Shown here in pieces: positions 2,319-59,711 of a stretch of DNA of 64,000 nucleotides. The position numbers and the translations under genes are program-made. Origin of the DNA: Oscillospiraceae bacterium (GTDB lineage: Bacteria; Bacillota; Clostridia; Saccharofermentanales; Saccharofermentanaceae); contig CACYMP010000002.1 of the NCBI GenBank assembly GCA_902775565.1, positions 62,001 to 126,000 of the forward strand. Direction: 5' to 3'. Each line of letters starts with the position of its first letter. Within the stretch, counting starts at the first letter, position 1. Below the pieces are notes generated by a model. The model was not told where the DNA came from and did not search any database. It worked only from the letters and a program-made list of their open reading frames with translations.

Positions 2319-3716
2319 ATGGAAGTAGATGTTTTAAAGAAAGTTCCGGTTTCAGAACAGGATCCCAAGGTCCGCTCAACCAACTTCGACGAGGTCAACC
2401 TCGGTTATACAAAAGAAGAGGCAATGGCTGAGGCAACACGTTGCCTTAACTGCAAGAACGCACGCTGCATCAACGGCTGCCCCGTCAACATCAATATCCC
2501 CGCATTCATCGCGAAGGTAAAGGACGGCGACGTAGAAGGAGCTTACGACGTTATCTCGCAGTCATCCTCACTGCCCGCTGTCTGCGGCCGTGTCTGCCCT
2601 CAGGAAACACAGTGCGAGGCACAGTGCATCCGCGGCATCAAGGGCGAGGCAGTCTCGATCGGACGTCTCGAAAGGTTCGTTGCCGACACGGCTAAGGATA
2701 TGGGCATTAAGCCCCAGCTTCCTGCCGGCATCGTAAAGAAAGGCAAGAAAGTAGCCGTCATCGGCGCAGGTCCTTCAGGACTTACATGTGCCGGCGATCT
2801 CGCAAAACTCGGCTATGATGTCACTATCTTTGAGGCCCTCCACAAGGCAGGCGGCGTTCTCGTTTACGGCATCCCCGAGTTCCGTCTCCCCAAGGAGAAG
2901 GTCGTTGCAAAAGAAGTCGAGAACATCAGATCTCTCGGCGTTAACATTGTTACAGATGCAGTAATCGGAAGGTCTCTGACCATTGACGACCTTTTCGAGA
3001 AGGAAGGCTTCTCGGCCGTATTCGTCGGATCGGGCGCAGGCCTCCCCCGCTTCATGAACATCCCCGGCGAGCAGTCGCTCGGCGTTTTCTCCGCTAACGA
3101 ATATCTGACCAGATCCAACCTCATGGGCGCATTCTCCGAAGATTCAAGAACGCCCATCATGAGAGCCAAGAAGGCCGTTATCGTCGGTGGCGGCAATGTT
3201 GCCATGGATGCGGCGCGCACCGCAAGGAGACTCGGAGCCGAGGTCCACATCGTTTACCGCCGTTCGGAAGCAGAGCTCCCCGCTCGAGTTGAGGAAGTAC
3301 ACCACGCCAAGGAAGAGGGCATAATTTTCGATCTCCTCACCAACCCCGTTGAGATCCTTGCAAATGAGGAAGGCTGGGTAACCGGCTGCAGGTGCATCAA
3401 GATGGAGCTGGGTGAGCCCGATGCTTCAGGCAGAAGAAGCCCGGTCGAGATCCCCGGTTCCGAATTCACGATCGACTGTGACGCCGTCATCATGTCGCTC
3501 GGCACGTCGCCTAATCCTCTTATCAAAACAACTACCGCAGGCCTCGAAGTCAACAAGCGCGGCGGAATCATCGTCAACGAATCGGAGATGACCACCCGCG
3601 AAGGCGTTTTCGCAGGCGGCGACGCTGTTACCGGTGCCGCTACCGTAATCCTCGCCATGGGCGCGGGCAAGTCAGCCGCCAAGGGCATCGACGAGTACCT
3701 GTCCAAGCAGGGCTGA
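2319..3716 (+). CDS. nfnB: NfnB / GltA-type NADPH-dependent glutamate-synthase-like subunit
   Basis: A 465-residue flavoprotein. Two Cys groups, 42/45/50/54 and 89/93/99/103, match the two [4Fe-4S] sites of the GltD/NfnB family. They are followed by an FAD dinucleotide fold (GAGPSGL, about 150-156) and an NADP fold (GGGNVAMDAAR, about 292). Paired with NfnA it would form the cytoplasmic electron-bifurcating transhydrogenase of fermentative clostridia. No glutamate-synthase large subunit is nearby, which favours NfnB over GltD. Ribosome site AAGGAG precedes the ATG. A strong terminator follows 27 bases after the stop. Confidence 0.9.
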   Translation: MEVDVLKKVPVSEQDPKVRSTNFDEVNLGYTKEEAMAEATRCLNCKNARCINGCPVNINIPAFIAKVKDGDVEGAYDVISQSSSLPAVCGRVCPQETQCEAQCIRGIKGEAVSIGRLERFVADTAKDMGIKPQLPAGIVKKGKKVAVIGAGPSGLTCAGDLAKLGYDVTIFEALHKAGGVLVYGIPEFRLPKEKVVAKEVENIRSLGVNIVTDAVIGRSLTIDDLFEKEGFSAVFVGSGAGLPRFMNIPGEQSLGVFSANEYLTRSNLMGAFSEDSRTPIMRAKKAVIVGGGNVAMDAARTARRLGAEVHIVYRRSEAELPARVEEVHHAKEEGIIFDLLTNPVEILANEEGWVTGCRCIKMELGEPDASGRRSPVEIPGSEFTIDCDAVIMSLGTSPNPLIKTTTAGLEVNKRGGIIVNESEMTTREGVFAGGDAVTGAATVILAMGAGKSAAKGIDEYLSKQG

Positions 3717-3743
3717 TAGTTTTTGATTCTTATTCTGCTCACG

Positions 3744-3770
3744 GCCGGCCTTCATCAGGGCCGGCTTTTT
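3744..3770 (+). terminator. Rho-independent terminator of nfnAB
   Basis: GCCGGCC (3744-3750) pairs with GGCCGGC (3759-3765) across an 8-base loop, followed directly by five T. Confidence 0.93.
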
Positions 3771-3797: not shown

Positions 3798-3987
3798 AGT
3801 ACCGTCAAAATCCTTTAAAAGGTTATTTTTGTCGGTAGTTTTTCGGGCTTAAAGAGGGTTTTGGAGCTCAGACTACCGCCAAAAACCATAGAATCCTAAT
3901 TCTCGACGGTAGTTTGCTGCCTCATAAGGCTGTTTGGGAGCATAAACTACCGTCAAGATCAGCCGAAATCAAGTTTTTGTAGGTAGT
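3798..3987. repeat. Palindromic element array, family A (three 42-bp units, 74-bp period)
   Basis: Three imperfect inverted repeats occupy 3798-3839, 3872-3913 and 3946-3987. Each is 42 bp and starts every 74 bp exactly. The outer arms are ACTACCG (left) and CGGTAGT (right), with small variations; the next inner bases tend to be YCAAAA on the left and TTTTGNC on the right, while the centre differs between copies. The 32-bp gaps share a short GTTT(T/G)GGAGC-like segment, so the array probably grew by tandem duplication of a 74-bp unit followed by drift. No open frame with a ribosome site runs through it. Confidence 0.85.
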
Positions 3988-3996
3988 CTGTTTGGC

Positions 3997-4188
3997 ACCT
4001 ACAGATAGAAATCGGGTTTTTGCCATTTTCATCTGTAGATTTTCCGTAAAAACGCCTCTTTTGAGCTCTCACCTACAGATTGAAATTGATTCTTTTTAAT
4101 TCTCATCTGTAGGTTTGCCGTTTTACGTGCCAAAAAAACCAAAAACCTACAGATGAAAACACGCTTTTTCGAATTTCAGTCTGTAGGT
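3997..4188. repeat. Palindromic element array, family B (three 44-bp units, 74-bp period)
   Basis: Inverted repeats occupy 3997-4040, 4071-4114 and 4145-4188. Each is 44 bp, again with a 74-bp period. Arms are ACCTACAGAT and ATCTGTAGGT with GAAA/TTTC-rich inner flanks. The family A array ends only 9 bases earlier (junction CTGTTTGGC). The right arm of the third copy has one change (GTCTGTAGGT). From 4189 to the regulator gene I see only AT-rich sequence, a palindrome and a promoter. Confidence 0.85.
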
Positions 4189-4311: not shown

Positions 4312-4482
4312 TTAACAATTGTTAATATTCCGTTTAATTATCCGTTCACATTTTCGAAACAAATTACCTTTTTGGTAGCAGATTTCGGGTGTATTTTGCG
4401 ATTTTAAGTGAAATTATGGCGGAAATGTGATATAAAAATCGAAAAGTTGTTAACATTTCGTTCACAAATGGTGTACTATAAT
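4312..4482 (+). promoter_or_regulatory. Regulatory region of the HxlR-type gene (palindrome and -10 box)
   Basis: A perfect 14-bp palindrome TTAACAATTGTTAA lies at 4312-4325. A related TTGTTAACA...TTCACAA stretch lies at 4447-4467, just before a perfect -10 TATAAT at 4477-4482. No good -35 box is spaced correctly. HxlR-type regulators commonly bind such AT-rich dyads, so autoregulation is a reasonable guess only. Confidence 0.45.
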
Positions 4483-4521: not shown

Positions 4522-4860
4522 ATGGTTCGCAAGATTAGCAAGATTTATTCAGAAACTGACTTATCCAAAGCAGGATCATATCCTGTTTTCTACGCGCTCA
4601 GCATCGCAGGTCACAGATGCAAGACATCCATCCTCCTGCTGATCAACGAGCTCCAGCAGACTGATTACAACAGCCTTCTCCGTCTCCTTGGCGGCATCAA
4701 CGGTGTTGTTCTCACCAAGATGCTCCGTGAGCTTGAGGCTGACTGCATGATCAAGAAGATTACTTTCGGAACATACGGAAGTAAGGACTATAAGGTCGGA
4801 TATACTCTCACTCTCACCGGTGAGCAGATAATCCCCATTCTCAACTCGATGAATGACTGA
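4522..4860 (+). CDS. HxlR-type winged-helix transcriptional regulator
   Basis: A 112-residue protein. The pattern ILLLINEL...LLRLLGGINGVVLTKMLRELEADCMIKK followed by a GYTLTLTGEQIIPIL segment matches the HxlR winged helix-turn-helix: helices, recognition helix, wing, then the LT-x-x-G-x-x-hydrophobic end. The start at 4522 is set by AGGAGG 8-9 bases upstream; the open frame extends further but with no ribosome site. The N-terminal sensing Cys found in many HxlR proteins is absent. It stands alone between two palindromic regions and has its own terminator. Its target is not apparent. Confidence 0.8.
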   Translation: MVRKISKIYSETDLSKAGSYPVFYALSIAGHRCKTSILLLINELQQTDYNSLLRLLGGINGVVLTKMLRELEADCMIKKITFGTYGSKDYKVGYTLTLTGEQIIPILNSMND

Positions 4861-5010: not shown

Positions 5011-5160
5011 AATGTCTAAGTGCCTGTCTATGTTAAAGGGCTTATCTTAGACGTTGAGTTAGAATTCAAGGGAAAAGCGGGAAAATCCTATGTATATGTC
5101 TAAGTAGAGATGCTTCACATAGACGTTGACTTGGAATTCCCGGACAGGACATATAGACAG
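5011..5160. repeat. Palindromic/direct repeat family G (GTCTAAG elements)
   Basis: Unit 1 at 5011-5054 has arms AATGTCTAAG and CTTAGACGTT, 44 bp overall. Unit 2 starts with GTCTAAG at 5098, 84 bp after the first, and ends with ATAGACGTT near 5127. Both are followed by a matching tail, GACGTTGAGTTAGAATTC (5051-5068) and GACGTTGACTTGGAATTC (5122-5139). A further TAGAC motif lies near 5154. The second hairpin is shorter and less perfect than the first. The 366-bp gap between genes holds this repeat and two terminators; I see no gene. Confidence 0.65.
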
Positions 5161-5226: not shown

Positions 5227-7176
5227 TTAAGCGTTGCAGATAACGGAGAAATCCTCAGCCTTGAGGGAAGCGCCGCCTACGAGGCCGCCGTTGATGTCAG
5301 GCTGAGCGAAGAGACCAGCTGCGTTCTTAGCGTTGCAGGAACCACCGTACTGGATGGTGATAGCTTCAGCGCACTTCTCGCAGTAAAGCTCAGCGATGAC
5401 GCCACGGATGAACTTGCAGACTTCCTCAGCCTGCTCATCTGTAGCTGTCTTGCCTGTGCCGATAGCCCAGATAGGCTCATAAGCGATTGTGATCTGGCAG
5501 AGCTTGTCAGCAGGGATATCCTTGAAAGCGCCAACGATCTGACCCTTGATCCAGTCGAATGTCTCGCCTGCTTCACGCTGTGCAAGAGACTCGCCGCAGC
5601 AGATGATAGGTCTTACGCCGTACTTGAGGAGAGCGAGAGCCTTCTTGTTGACTGTCTCGTCTGTCTCAGCGTTGTACTCACGTCTCTCGGAGTGGCCGAT
5701 GATGCAGTAGTTAACGCCCATCTTAGCGAGCCAGAGAGGTGAGATCTCGCCTGTGAAAGCACCCTTCTCTTCGAAGTGGCAGTTCTGAGCAGCGATCTTG
5801 ATGTTTGTGTAAGCAGCAGCTTCAACTGCAGCAGCGAGAGCTGTAGCAGGAACGCCGAGTGCGATCTTGGATGTTGCATCCTTAACGAGGGGCTTAAGCT
5901 CGTTGATGAGCTTAACAGCGTCTGCAGGGATACCGCAGTTCATCTTCCAGTTGCCTGCAGCAAAAATCCTGCCGACCTTCTTGTCGTTAAGGCAGTCGAT
6001 ACCGGGGAGAACCTTACCCTCGATGTACTCGAGAGAAGCGCCGCCGCCTGTGGAGATGTGAGAAACCTTATCAGCATAGCCGAGCTTCTCGATAGCAGCT
6101 GCGGAGTCACCGCCGCCGATGATGGATGTGCAGTCTGCGTCAGCGATTGCCTGAGCGATAGCCTTTGTACCAACTGCGAACTTCTCGAACTCGAAAACGC
6201 CTGCAGGGCCGTTCCAGATAACTGTCTTTGCGCCCTTGATAGCTTCGGAGAACTTAGCGATCGTCTCAGGTCCGATGTCGAGGCCCTGCCAGCCGTCAGG
6301 GATCTCCATTGTAGGAACTACCTTGCTGTTTGCGTTAGCGTCGAAAGCGTCAGCAACAACTGTGTCTGTAGGAAGAAGAAGCTTAACGCCCTTCTCTTCA
6401 GCCTTAGCGAGGATCTCCTTAGCGAGGTCAACCTTGTCAGCCTCAAAGAGGGAGTCGCCGATCTTGCCGCCCTGAGCACCGATGAATGTATAAGCCATAC
6501 CACCGCCGATGATGATGGTGTCAGCCTTGTCGAGGAGGTTTGTGATTACGCCGATCTTGTCGGAAACCTTAGCGCCGCCGAGGATGGCAACGAACGGTCT
6601 TGCCGGATTGTCGAGCGCGCCGCCGATGAAGTCGATCTCTTTCTTGATGAGGTAACCGCAAGCGGAAGGCAGGAAGTTTGCAAGACCTGCTGTTGAAGCA
6701 TGAGCACGGTGAGCTGTACCGAATGCATCGTTTACATAGAGGTCAGCCATGGAAGCGAGCTCTGCAGCGAACTTAGGATCGTTCTTTGTCTCTTCCTTGT
6801 GGAAACGGACGTTCTCGAGCATAAGGATCTCGCCGTCCTTGAGAGCAGCTGCCTTAGCCTTTGCGTCTTCGCCGATAACGTCAGCTGCGAGTGTAACGGG
6901 CTTGCCGATGAGCTCTGCAAGTCTGTCTGCAGCGGGCTTCATGGAGAACTTTGCCTCAGGACCGTTCTTCGGACGGCCGAGGTGTGATACGAGGATTACC
7001 TTTGCGTTGTTGTCAACGAGGTACTTGATCGTGGGGAGAGCACCCTTGATACGCTTGTCGTCTGTGATCTTTGTTCCTGTCTCTTTGTCGAGCGGTACGT
7101 TAAAGTCAACGCGGACGATAACTCTCTTGCCGGCTACGTTCAGATCTTCAACGCTTTTCTTGTCATACATTGCCAT
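5227..7176 (-). CDS. pgk-tpi: Phosphoglycerate kinase-triosephosphate isomerase fusion
   Basis: A 649-residue fusion of two glycolytic enzymes. Residues 1 to about 399 are a complete phosphoglycerate kinase: VDFNVPLD near the start, [11 protein letters not shown] in the middle and a GGGDSAAA nucleotide loop. From about 405 a full triosephosphate isomerase begins with AGNWKMN and includes the catalytic His in GHSERR and the catalytic Glu in [12 protein letters not shown]. The two join in one open frame with no internal ribosome site visible. Such fusions are known in Thermotoga; in most Bacillota the genes are separate. The gene stands alone with its own terminator, so both activities are made in a 1:1 ratio. 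AGGAG lies 11 bases before the ATG. Confidence 0.95.
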
Positions 7177-13790: not shown

Positions 13791-13858
13791 CAGGTTTTTT
13801 GCCCCTTGTCCTGTTGTCTGACTTTGGCGTTTAAGGGTGCGCCGGCTCGGAAATGATG

Positions 13859-13951
13859 GCCTGCAGATGAGAAAAAGAAAAAACGGTTTTCATCTGTAGG
13901 TGCCAGACAGACTACCGCCAAAATCAAGTTTTCGCTGATTTTGACGGTAGT
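13859..13951. repeat. Palindromic elements: one family B unit and one family A unit
   Basis: Family B at 13859-13901 (arms GCCTGCAGAT and ATCTGTAGGT) and family A at 13911-13951 (arms ACTACCG and CGGTAGT) are separated by GCCAGACAG. That 9-base junction is the reverse complement of the A-to-B junction near 3988-3996 apart from one base. The pair is therefore an inverted copy of the A-B boundary in the first array. Confidence 0.82.
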
Positions 13952-13956
13952 TTTCT

Positions 13957-14072
13957 GCCTACTATTAGAAATTTTAAAAGTCTGATTCTAATAGCAGGTC
14001 GGCGTCAAAAACAGCCTAAAAATGCAAAAACCTACTATTAGATTTCGCATTTTTGAAAATCTAATAGTAGGT
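13957..14072. repeat. Palindromic elements, family C (two units, 73-bp period)
   Basis: Units 13957-13999 and 14030-14072 are each 43 bp. The arms are CCTACTATTAG and CTAATAGTAGG; the first copy has one change in its right arm (CTAATAGCAGG). The start-to-start distance is 73 bp. No protein is encoded. Confidence 0.83.
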
Positions 14073-14082
14073 GCTTTTTGGC

Positions 14083-14270
14083 GTACATACGAAACTCGAA
14101 AAAAGTCCGTTTTTATCCGTGCATTTTCATCGAAAACGGCCTCTGAAAGCCTTTGCGCACATATATTTTCTGGAAAAAGTCCGTTTTCGTATGTACATTT
14201 CGCGCTGGGCGGCGCAAAATCGGCCAAAATGCACGTATAAATTCAAAGAAAAAGCGATTTTCGTATGTAC
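14083..14270. repeat. Palindromic elements, family D (three units, 74-bp period)
   Basis: Units 14083-14122, 14157-14196 and 14231-14270 are 40 bp each and repeat every 74 bp. Arms are GTACATAC/GTATGTAC-like but several are degenerate: left arms GTACATAC, GCACATAT, GCACGTAT; right arms ATCCGTGC, GTATGTAC, GTATGTAC. The first two units share AAAAAGTCCG before the right arm. This is the most worn family. The 650-bp gap between ctsR and the DUF1846 gene holds only the promoter, these repeats and a terminator. Confidence 0.72.
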
Positions 14271-59218: not shown

Positions 59219-59409
59219 CAAGAATCGGATCCTTTCGAGAATTTTGCAATAATAAATATACACTAAACGGGCGGTTTTCGCATTAATAATATAAATATTT
59301 TAAATTTGGACGGGTTTTCGGGGGTGATTCGTCTGCCCGCGCCGCGCGCATAGCTTCACCCGGCCCGCCGGGGTATTTTTTGTTGGCTTTGGTAATCAGT
59401 GCAGTAAAA

Positions 59410-59523
59410 TTGCACTTTTTGGCCTGATTTATGCAAGAAAAAGTGCAAATTGGATCAAATTGCAGAAATCCGTGCACTTTTCGGGAGATATTCGACAAAA
59501 AAGTGCAAATGAAAAATGCACGG
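59410..59523. repeat. Palindromic repeat family E (TGCACTTTT elements)
   Basis: TGCACTTTT at 59411 and 59473 alternates with AAAAGTGCA at 59440 and 59499. A first perfect hairpin spans 59410-59448 (TTGCACTTTTT/AAAAAGTGCAA), and a second 59473-59507. A third right arm (GAAAAATGCACGG, 59511-59523) pairs with CCGTGCACTTTTC at 59470-59482, so two foldings are possible. The spacing is about 60-62 bp. Confidence 0.72.
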
Positions 59524-59608
59524 GTTATGCGCACGATGACGATCCACGTATCTTTCGCGAAATAACCTCCCGCCGTGAATCCTTCGCGAATCGATTTTCG
59601 GATTCCTT

Positions 59609-59711
59609 AAAATCTACACTGAAACGGCTGTTTTACTGTAGATTTTTGTGTAAATCCGGCTAATCTACACTTTTTTCTACACTGAACCGATCGTTTCACT
59701 GTAGAGATTTG
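59609..59711. repeat. Palindromic repeat family F (CTACACTGAA elements)
   Basis: Unit 1 at 59609-59646 has 17-bp arms (AAAATCTACACTGAAAC and GTTTTACTGTAGATTTT, 15 of 17 pairs). Unit 2 has CTACACTGAA at 59677 and TTTCACTGTAG ending at 59704. The start-to-start distance is 63 bp. An extra CTACAC at 59665 allows other pairings. The 580-bp gap between glf and the GH3 gene contains these repeats and no gene that I can support. Confidence 0.72.

Follow-up and report, generated by a model that had tools for sequence, protein, structure and literature searches.

Arrays of a short DNA motif, repeated in alternating orientation at distances of whole helical turns, are distributed between the genes of the genome studied here and of its relatives, and several of them adjoin a gene whose protein product has about 269 residues. 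With a little better than an even chance of this being right, genes and arrays may form an undescribed two-part system of Clostridia, in which PD-(D/E)XK-like paralogues and their own helical-turn motif arrays change together over evolution. With somewhat more assurance it is proposed, from sequence comparison, that these multi-copy paralogues recognize, and probably established, arrays of their own motif both at the promoter and at dispersed sites. The geometry of the arrays, their phasing, the linkage of gene and array, the sharing of motifs within a genome and the concerted change of gene-adjacent and dispersed arrays are all directly supported. No description of such arrays was found in open-access papers, and comparison of the array or the protein with Rfam, Pfam, NCBIfam, PHROGs and PDB sequences gave nothing relevant.

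The window, which is the whole stretch of 64 kb analysed (contig C2:62001-126000), belongs to an assembly of 2.61 Mb (G000; 37 contigs, 93.6% complete), whose nearest named relatives are Oscillospiraceae and Saccharofermentans metagenome genomes. All genomes used here are drafts, and many are metagenome assemblies. The arrays of the window and the neighbours of the first one are as follows.

2319..3716, plus strand: nfnB, gene for an NfnB/GltD-like NAD(P)-FeS oxidoreductase (Fer4_20 and Pyr_redox_2), upstream of the array
3743..3766, plus strand: intrinsic terminator-like hairpin 3' of nfnB
3798..3839, no strand: A unit 1 (two inverted copies of the A motif)
3872..3913, no strand: A unit 2
3946..3987, no strand: A unit 3
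3988..3996, no strand: A/B junction CTGTTTGGC, also at other loci of G000; CTGTTTTGC in the orthologous array of the related genome G046
3997..4040, no strand: B unit 1
4071..4114, no strand: B unit 2
4145..4188, no strand: B unit 3
4522..4860, plus strand: HxlR-type winged-helix gene, downstream of the array
13858..14196, no strand: second array, mosaic B-A-C-C-J-J, in the ctsR/clpC region; an array of other motifs is at the orthologous position of G046
59409..59530, no strand: probable third array, motif TTGCACTTTTT in alternating orientation, steps of about 61-62 bp (six turns)

The original prediction had A units beginning at 3798, 3872 and 3946 and B units at 3997, 4071 and 4145, with the two blocks 9 bases apart, and this was confirmed: the start-to-start steps are 74 and 74 bp in each block, and CTGTTTGGC joins A unit 3 to B unit 1. 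Its arm sequences need small corrections: the first A arm is AGTACCG rather than ACTACCG, the right arm of the last A unit is GTAGGTAGT, and AGAT rather than AGGT stands at the end of the right arm of B unit 1. The A/B array was not detected by Tandem Repeats Finder. The array starts 32 bp downstream of the terminator-like hairpin and is therefore probably outside the nfnB transcript; a promoter-like site (4450-4479) lies between it and the HxlR-type gene.

The window has other repeats as well. Between the HxlR-type gene and a single minus-strand gene encoding phosphoglycerate kinase fused to triosephosphate isomerase (5227-7176), positions 5016-5160 hold inverted repeats, TGTCTAAGT.../...TAGACGTTGA(C/G)TT(A/G)GAATTC, which are perhaps a degenerate array of a different kind. 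Inverted-motif repeats AATCTACACTG at 59608-59710 adjoin the TTGCACTTTTT repeats. Downstream of nfnB in relatives that lack 74-bp arrays (L032, L033 and L034, positions 6380-6680), different palindromic repeats are found.

The A arm pair has seven exact occurrences in G000, at five places, and the B arm pair is found at three. Other motifs with identical geometry include C (ACCTACTATTAGAT) and J (GTACATACGAAA/TGCACGTATAAA), plus variants. The two families first described are thus too few: no fewer than six motifs are present in the genome (A, B, C, J and others), and the A/B junction is kept in mosaic arrays, for example B-A-C-C-J-J. Pairs of hairpins with matched arms, sought de novo in 784 kb of G000, numbered nine at 74 bp and four at 148 bp; the Markov-shuffled control yielded two with all distances pooled. 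An unselected 400-kb stretch of the related genome G031 gave eight pairs at 74, two at 73 and three at 148 bp. In 400 kb of G016 the distances were mostly other than 74 bp, and in 800 kb, mainly of Lachnospiraceae neighbourhoods, the 74-bp peak was absent except for one array already known there (L113).

With a covariance model in which two units are separated by 74 bp, about 30 array loci were located in G000 and arrays in 40 of the 85 genomes of the genus; as the model was built on 74-bp pairs, the genus-wide search favours that distance, and only the scans of 784 kb of G000 and of the 400-kb stretches are unbiased for the period. Arrays are present in four of the five genera of the family. 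A search of 342 genomes of the class found them in only 4, of which one lies outside the family (G311, 75-bp steps). Placement is intergenic, 22 arrays being between convergent, 25 between tandem and 7 between divergent genes (the background sample is small, 29 regions). A genome-wide preference for 74-bp spacing and for intergenic location, for which the original prediction proposed a check, was found on both counts, and the number of loci in G000 and of genomes in the genus rules out a local duplication only.

The array outside the family (L253, in G311) has six units with the motif GTACGGATAAAA, which is a motif of arrays in the genus of the window; horizontal transfer or convergence is possible. 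G000 also carries tandem, near-identical two-level palindromes of about 70-74 bp (GTCCGT..GTCTGTGTTT) at C4:113000-113130 and 122190-122330, an element of a different type, and AACGTGGAATGAA, repeated in alternating orientation with a period of about 72 bp, at C2:177990-178115 and 213425-213560. Of the markers of a replication origin, a dnaA gene was not found in the assembly, and GC skew along contigs C1-C4 was without a clear turn.

The partner gene lies outside the window. All three close copies in G000 are beside arrays (C4:99953-100759, C20:35244-36011 and C22:16225), and almost all of the close copies examined have an array immediately 5' of the start codon. At least six inverted motif copies were present in the 420 bp 5' of the start in 29 of 41 close homologues, which include L295, a truncated and uninformative contig-end fragment, compared with 0 of 54 gene bodies and at most five in shuffles. 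Automatic motif words failed at some loci; six lower-scoring close homologues, inspected as sequence, have in-register arrays too. Among class-wide homologues, at least five upstream copies were found in 18 of 29 (two of the 29 being genus members already in the close set) and none in gene bodies. The upstream arrays end tens of bp ahead of the start codon. When 653 ORFs, drawn from about 30% of the genome, were clustered into paralogues, no DNA-binding family emerged, since the partner genes were barely represented among them.

The modal spacing of 42 upstream arrays across Clostridia is 31, 51-54, 61-65, 73-74 or 83 bp. These spacings are quantized in helical turns (R=0.91 at 10.5 bp, offset 0.07 bp, n=42), and remain so without the seven-turn class (n=14, R=0.79, p about 2e-4), which makes an accidental 74-bp duplication very unlikely as the source of the period. 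Gene-adjacent motifs recur in the dispersed arrays of their own genome at 3.09 copies, versus 1.18 in other genomes (permutation p=0.0002); some have no matching dispersed array among those sampled. Protein identity is correlated with motif sharing (Mantel r=0.22, p=0.0005), a correlation that leans on a few near-identical pairs.

The comparison of species shows that position is retained while the motif changes. At four array loci of G000, other species have flanking genes of 80-88% identity, with an array of a different motif at the matching spot. The nfnB arrays of G000 and G046 align without a gap over 378 bp at 48% identity, each with 3+3 units; all arm sequences are different, and the junction CTGTTTNGCAC is kept. 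The partner gene on C4 of G000 and its G046 orthologue are 69% identical and have equal neighbours and different upstream motifs. In G000 both the array of this gene (eight matches) and nfnB block 1 (five matches) carry TACCG(T/A)CAA; in G046 the orthologous gene array (six matches) and nfnB block 1 (five matches) both carry GACCTACAA, and cross-matches between the two motifs number 0 or 1. The gene array and the distant nfnB block 1 have switched motif together between the two genomes. For nfnB block 2 (B in G000, TGACGGATAAAA in G046) a cognate gene was found in neither genome, and none was found for motifs B and C in the 93.6% complete G000 assembly, from which dnaA is missing too.

These results bear on the suggestion that the upstream array is simply an autoregulatory operator, the dispersed arrays being remnants of lost gene copies or the sites of a regulon. 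In its favour, the upstream arrays end shortly before the start codon and their motif is gene-specific. The dispersed arrays, however, are mostly downstream of or between convergent genes and not at promoters, and the gene-less orthologous arrays keep the exact 378-bp layout yet switch motif with the gene, a behaviour not expected of relics. The operator model is thus considered unlikely.

The distance between dyad centres, measured over 64 independent blocks of about 20 genomes, is 74.0, 73.0 or 73.5 bp with few exceptions, and three is the commonest number of units (34 of 64). A distance of 73-74 bp is seven helical turns; three to eight turns are seen elsewhere. Counted from the dyad centre, A/T content peaks at 0, 10, 22, 32, 42 and 52 bp, with troughs between, and does so also in linkers of unrelated sequence; in unconserved linkers the A/T fraction runs from about 0.35 to 0.82, and the period is 10.5 bp. 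At this period the arrays have an AA/TT power of 2.5, which is 15 times that of the flanks (0.17); shuffled sequence gives 0.21. The phasing stops at the outermost arms. The earlier description of conserved arms around a variable centre is supported, except that centre and linkers do not vary freely, as they carry A/T tracts phased at 10.5 bp. In the centre tract A is as frequent as T, which fits double-stranded DNA rather than RNA. Spacing and oscillation together point to phased DNA that is probably wrapped by protein.

The wrapping agent could be DNA gyrase or a general nucleoid protein, the motif being secondary. In E. coli the gyrase motif has flanks with a 10.75-bp period, and BIME-2 elements are strong gyrase sites (PMC6379681). 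The arrays display A/T-G/C phasing of about 10.5-10.75 bp, as gyrase wrapping sites do; this likeness to the gyrase motif and BIME-2, with a period near 10.5 bp and an intergenic location, suggests wrapping (PMC6379681), and placement between convergent genes is in keeping with it. In contrast to those sites, the arrays have a block-conserved sequence motif coupled to a gene, and a sequence-independent wrapper leaves unexplained the presence of one motif per block, its concerted switching with a particular gene and the gene link itself. The probability given to this explanation is low, below that of an operator.

Lower still is that of a functionless satellite, produced by tandem duplication of a 74-bp unit and ordinary recombination. 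Blocks do grow and shrink by whole units in register, and copies of them arise elsewhere, near-identical blocks being found at unrelated places. Within a block, however, linkers and loops are unrelated (identity 0.33 and 0.42) and the arms alike (0.75), the spacing is quantized across many unrelated motifs, and different species have kept the arrays in position and register, with an unchanged number of units.

Within a block, the left arm of a unit resembles the right arm of that unit no more closely than it resembles the arms of other units (per-block p=0.88, 64 blocks), even though detection bias favoured pairing. The idea that paired changes keep the palindromes was not supported by this result, and an imperfect hairpin kept as a structure, as in REPINs, was rejected on the same ground. 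The arms are best read, from their sequences, as a single binding motif that occurs six times with its orientation alternating, since arm likeness within blocks is not unit-specific. Across families the two arms covary, which reflects family identity, the pairing signal being absent within blocks. A loose skeleton, TAC-N5/6-AAAA, is common to most motifs of the genus. That the arrays are structured RNA or hairpin elements, such as terminators or ncRNA, is scarcely credible: array RNA folds far better than shuffles (z=-10.8) and pairs covary across families, but pairing-specific covariation inside blocks is absent, A and T are equally frequent in centre tracts, Rfam has no match above the gathering score, and terminators precede the array in 20 of 54 cases and lie inside it in 1 of 114.

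The partner protein has an N-terminal coiled coil and belongs to a multi-copy, diverging family. It has no sequence match in Pfam, NCBIfam or the PDB, and its PHROG matches are marginal only. The C-terminal 115 residues are homologous to the C-terminus of the PADLOC candidate PDC-S68 (E 3e-23); unlike PDC-S68, of about 1200 residues, the partner has only 269, with the coiled coil, and is linked to arrays. RVRSKSE, PDF and EH.G are invariant in 32 homologues (E166, P196-D197-F198, E212-H213). In an AlphaFold model (pLDDT 89.5, pTM 0.54) the N-terminal part forms a long helix and the C-terminal part a mixed domain, for which Foldseek gave the Bax1 nuclease as the best PDB match, a weak one by E-value (0.015, probability 0.99), followed by other PD-(D/E)XK enzymes with weak E-values. 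The position of the catalytic lysine, unlike that of PD-(D/E)XK nucleases, reads E-H-L-G rather than K. From the conserved residues, the weak structural match and the likeness to PDC-S68, the C-terminal domain is likely to be PD-(D/E)XK-like, and nuclease activity is predicted from sequence and model. In phage and plasmid collections a single distant, near-full-length homologue was found, in an unannotated 4.2-kb 'Bacteriophage sp.' record; plasmids gave matches to the C-terminal domain only, and these weak relatives are annotated as AAA ATPases or RecD/RecQ-like helicases. The family thus has no known mobile vehicle.

The closest parallel is with REP sequences and RAYT genes. REP elements are alternating inverted repeats, intergenic and mosaic with conserved junctions, and have species-specific motifs; the RAYT gene is flanked by its cognate repeat, and gene and repeat diverge together (PMC2817692). 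The arrays resemble REP/BIME elements and RAYT in all of these respects, including a co-diverging cognate gene. They differ in that the partner is PD-(D/E)XK-like and unrelated to RAYT, that the array is upstream only and not on both sides, that the spacing is locked to whole helical turns and that hairpins are not selected at the level of the unit. A Y1/HUH transposase (PF01797) had no match in G000; in the genus it is found in 21 of 85 genomes and in none of most of the array-rich ones (G028, G031, G046, G049, G054), without correlation with arrays. Membership in the RAYT/REPIN group was rejected because this defining transposase is absent. By analogy, the arrays appear to work like REP/RAYT without being a member, recognized in trans by a partner that would be a different enzyme. 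As in CRISPR, conserved and variable parts are regularly spaced; as the original prediction held, the arrays are unlike CRISPR, since the motif is short, only the arms and not whole repeats are conserved, and orientation alternates.

An array block, usually of three dyads, presents six copies of a motif of about 13 bp in alternating orientation at seven-turn spacing. In the mechanism proposed, the phased A/T tracts would allow an oligomeric protein to bind cooperatively along one face of the helix and to wrap the DNA. The most likely binder is the coiled-coil, PD-(D/E)XK-like family of about 269 residues, whose genes have their own upstream arrays. Each paralogue would recognize its own motif, at its own promoter, where binding would lead to autoregulation, and in dispersed chromosomal arrays, which may be maintained, and probably spread, by the cognate protein, as has been proposed for RAYT transposases and REP/BIME. 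Gyrase wrapping could contribute, but leaves the coupling of motif and gene unexplained. The sequences thus lead one to expect that the protein physically binds and wraps the arrays, has nuclease activity and plays a part in dispersal or in chromosome organization.

Taken together, the arrays and the partner gene suggest a new kind of protein-DNA partnership, which spreads through the chromosome and marks it. If the proposal is right, another genome-wide partnership of repeat and protein would stand next to REP/RAYT and CRISPR, and unannotated repeats at assembly breaks in rumen and gut Clostridia would be accounted for. It would also provide a natural experiment, with dozens of protein-array pairs, known motif switches and spacings of three to eight turns. 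It would then be possible to test how a DNA-binding protein shifts its specificity with every one of its sites following suit, and whether intergenic DNA in bacteria is organized by means of sequence-specific wrapped arrays.
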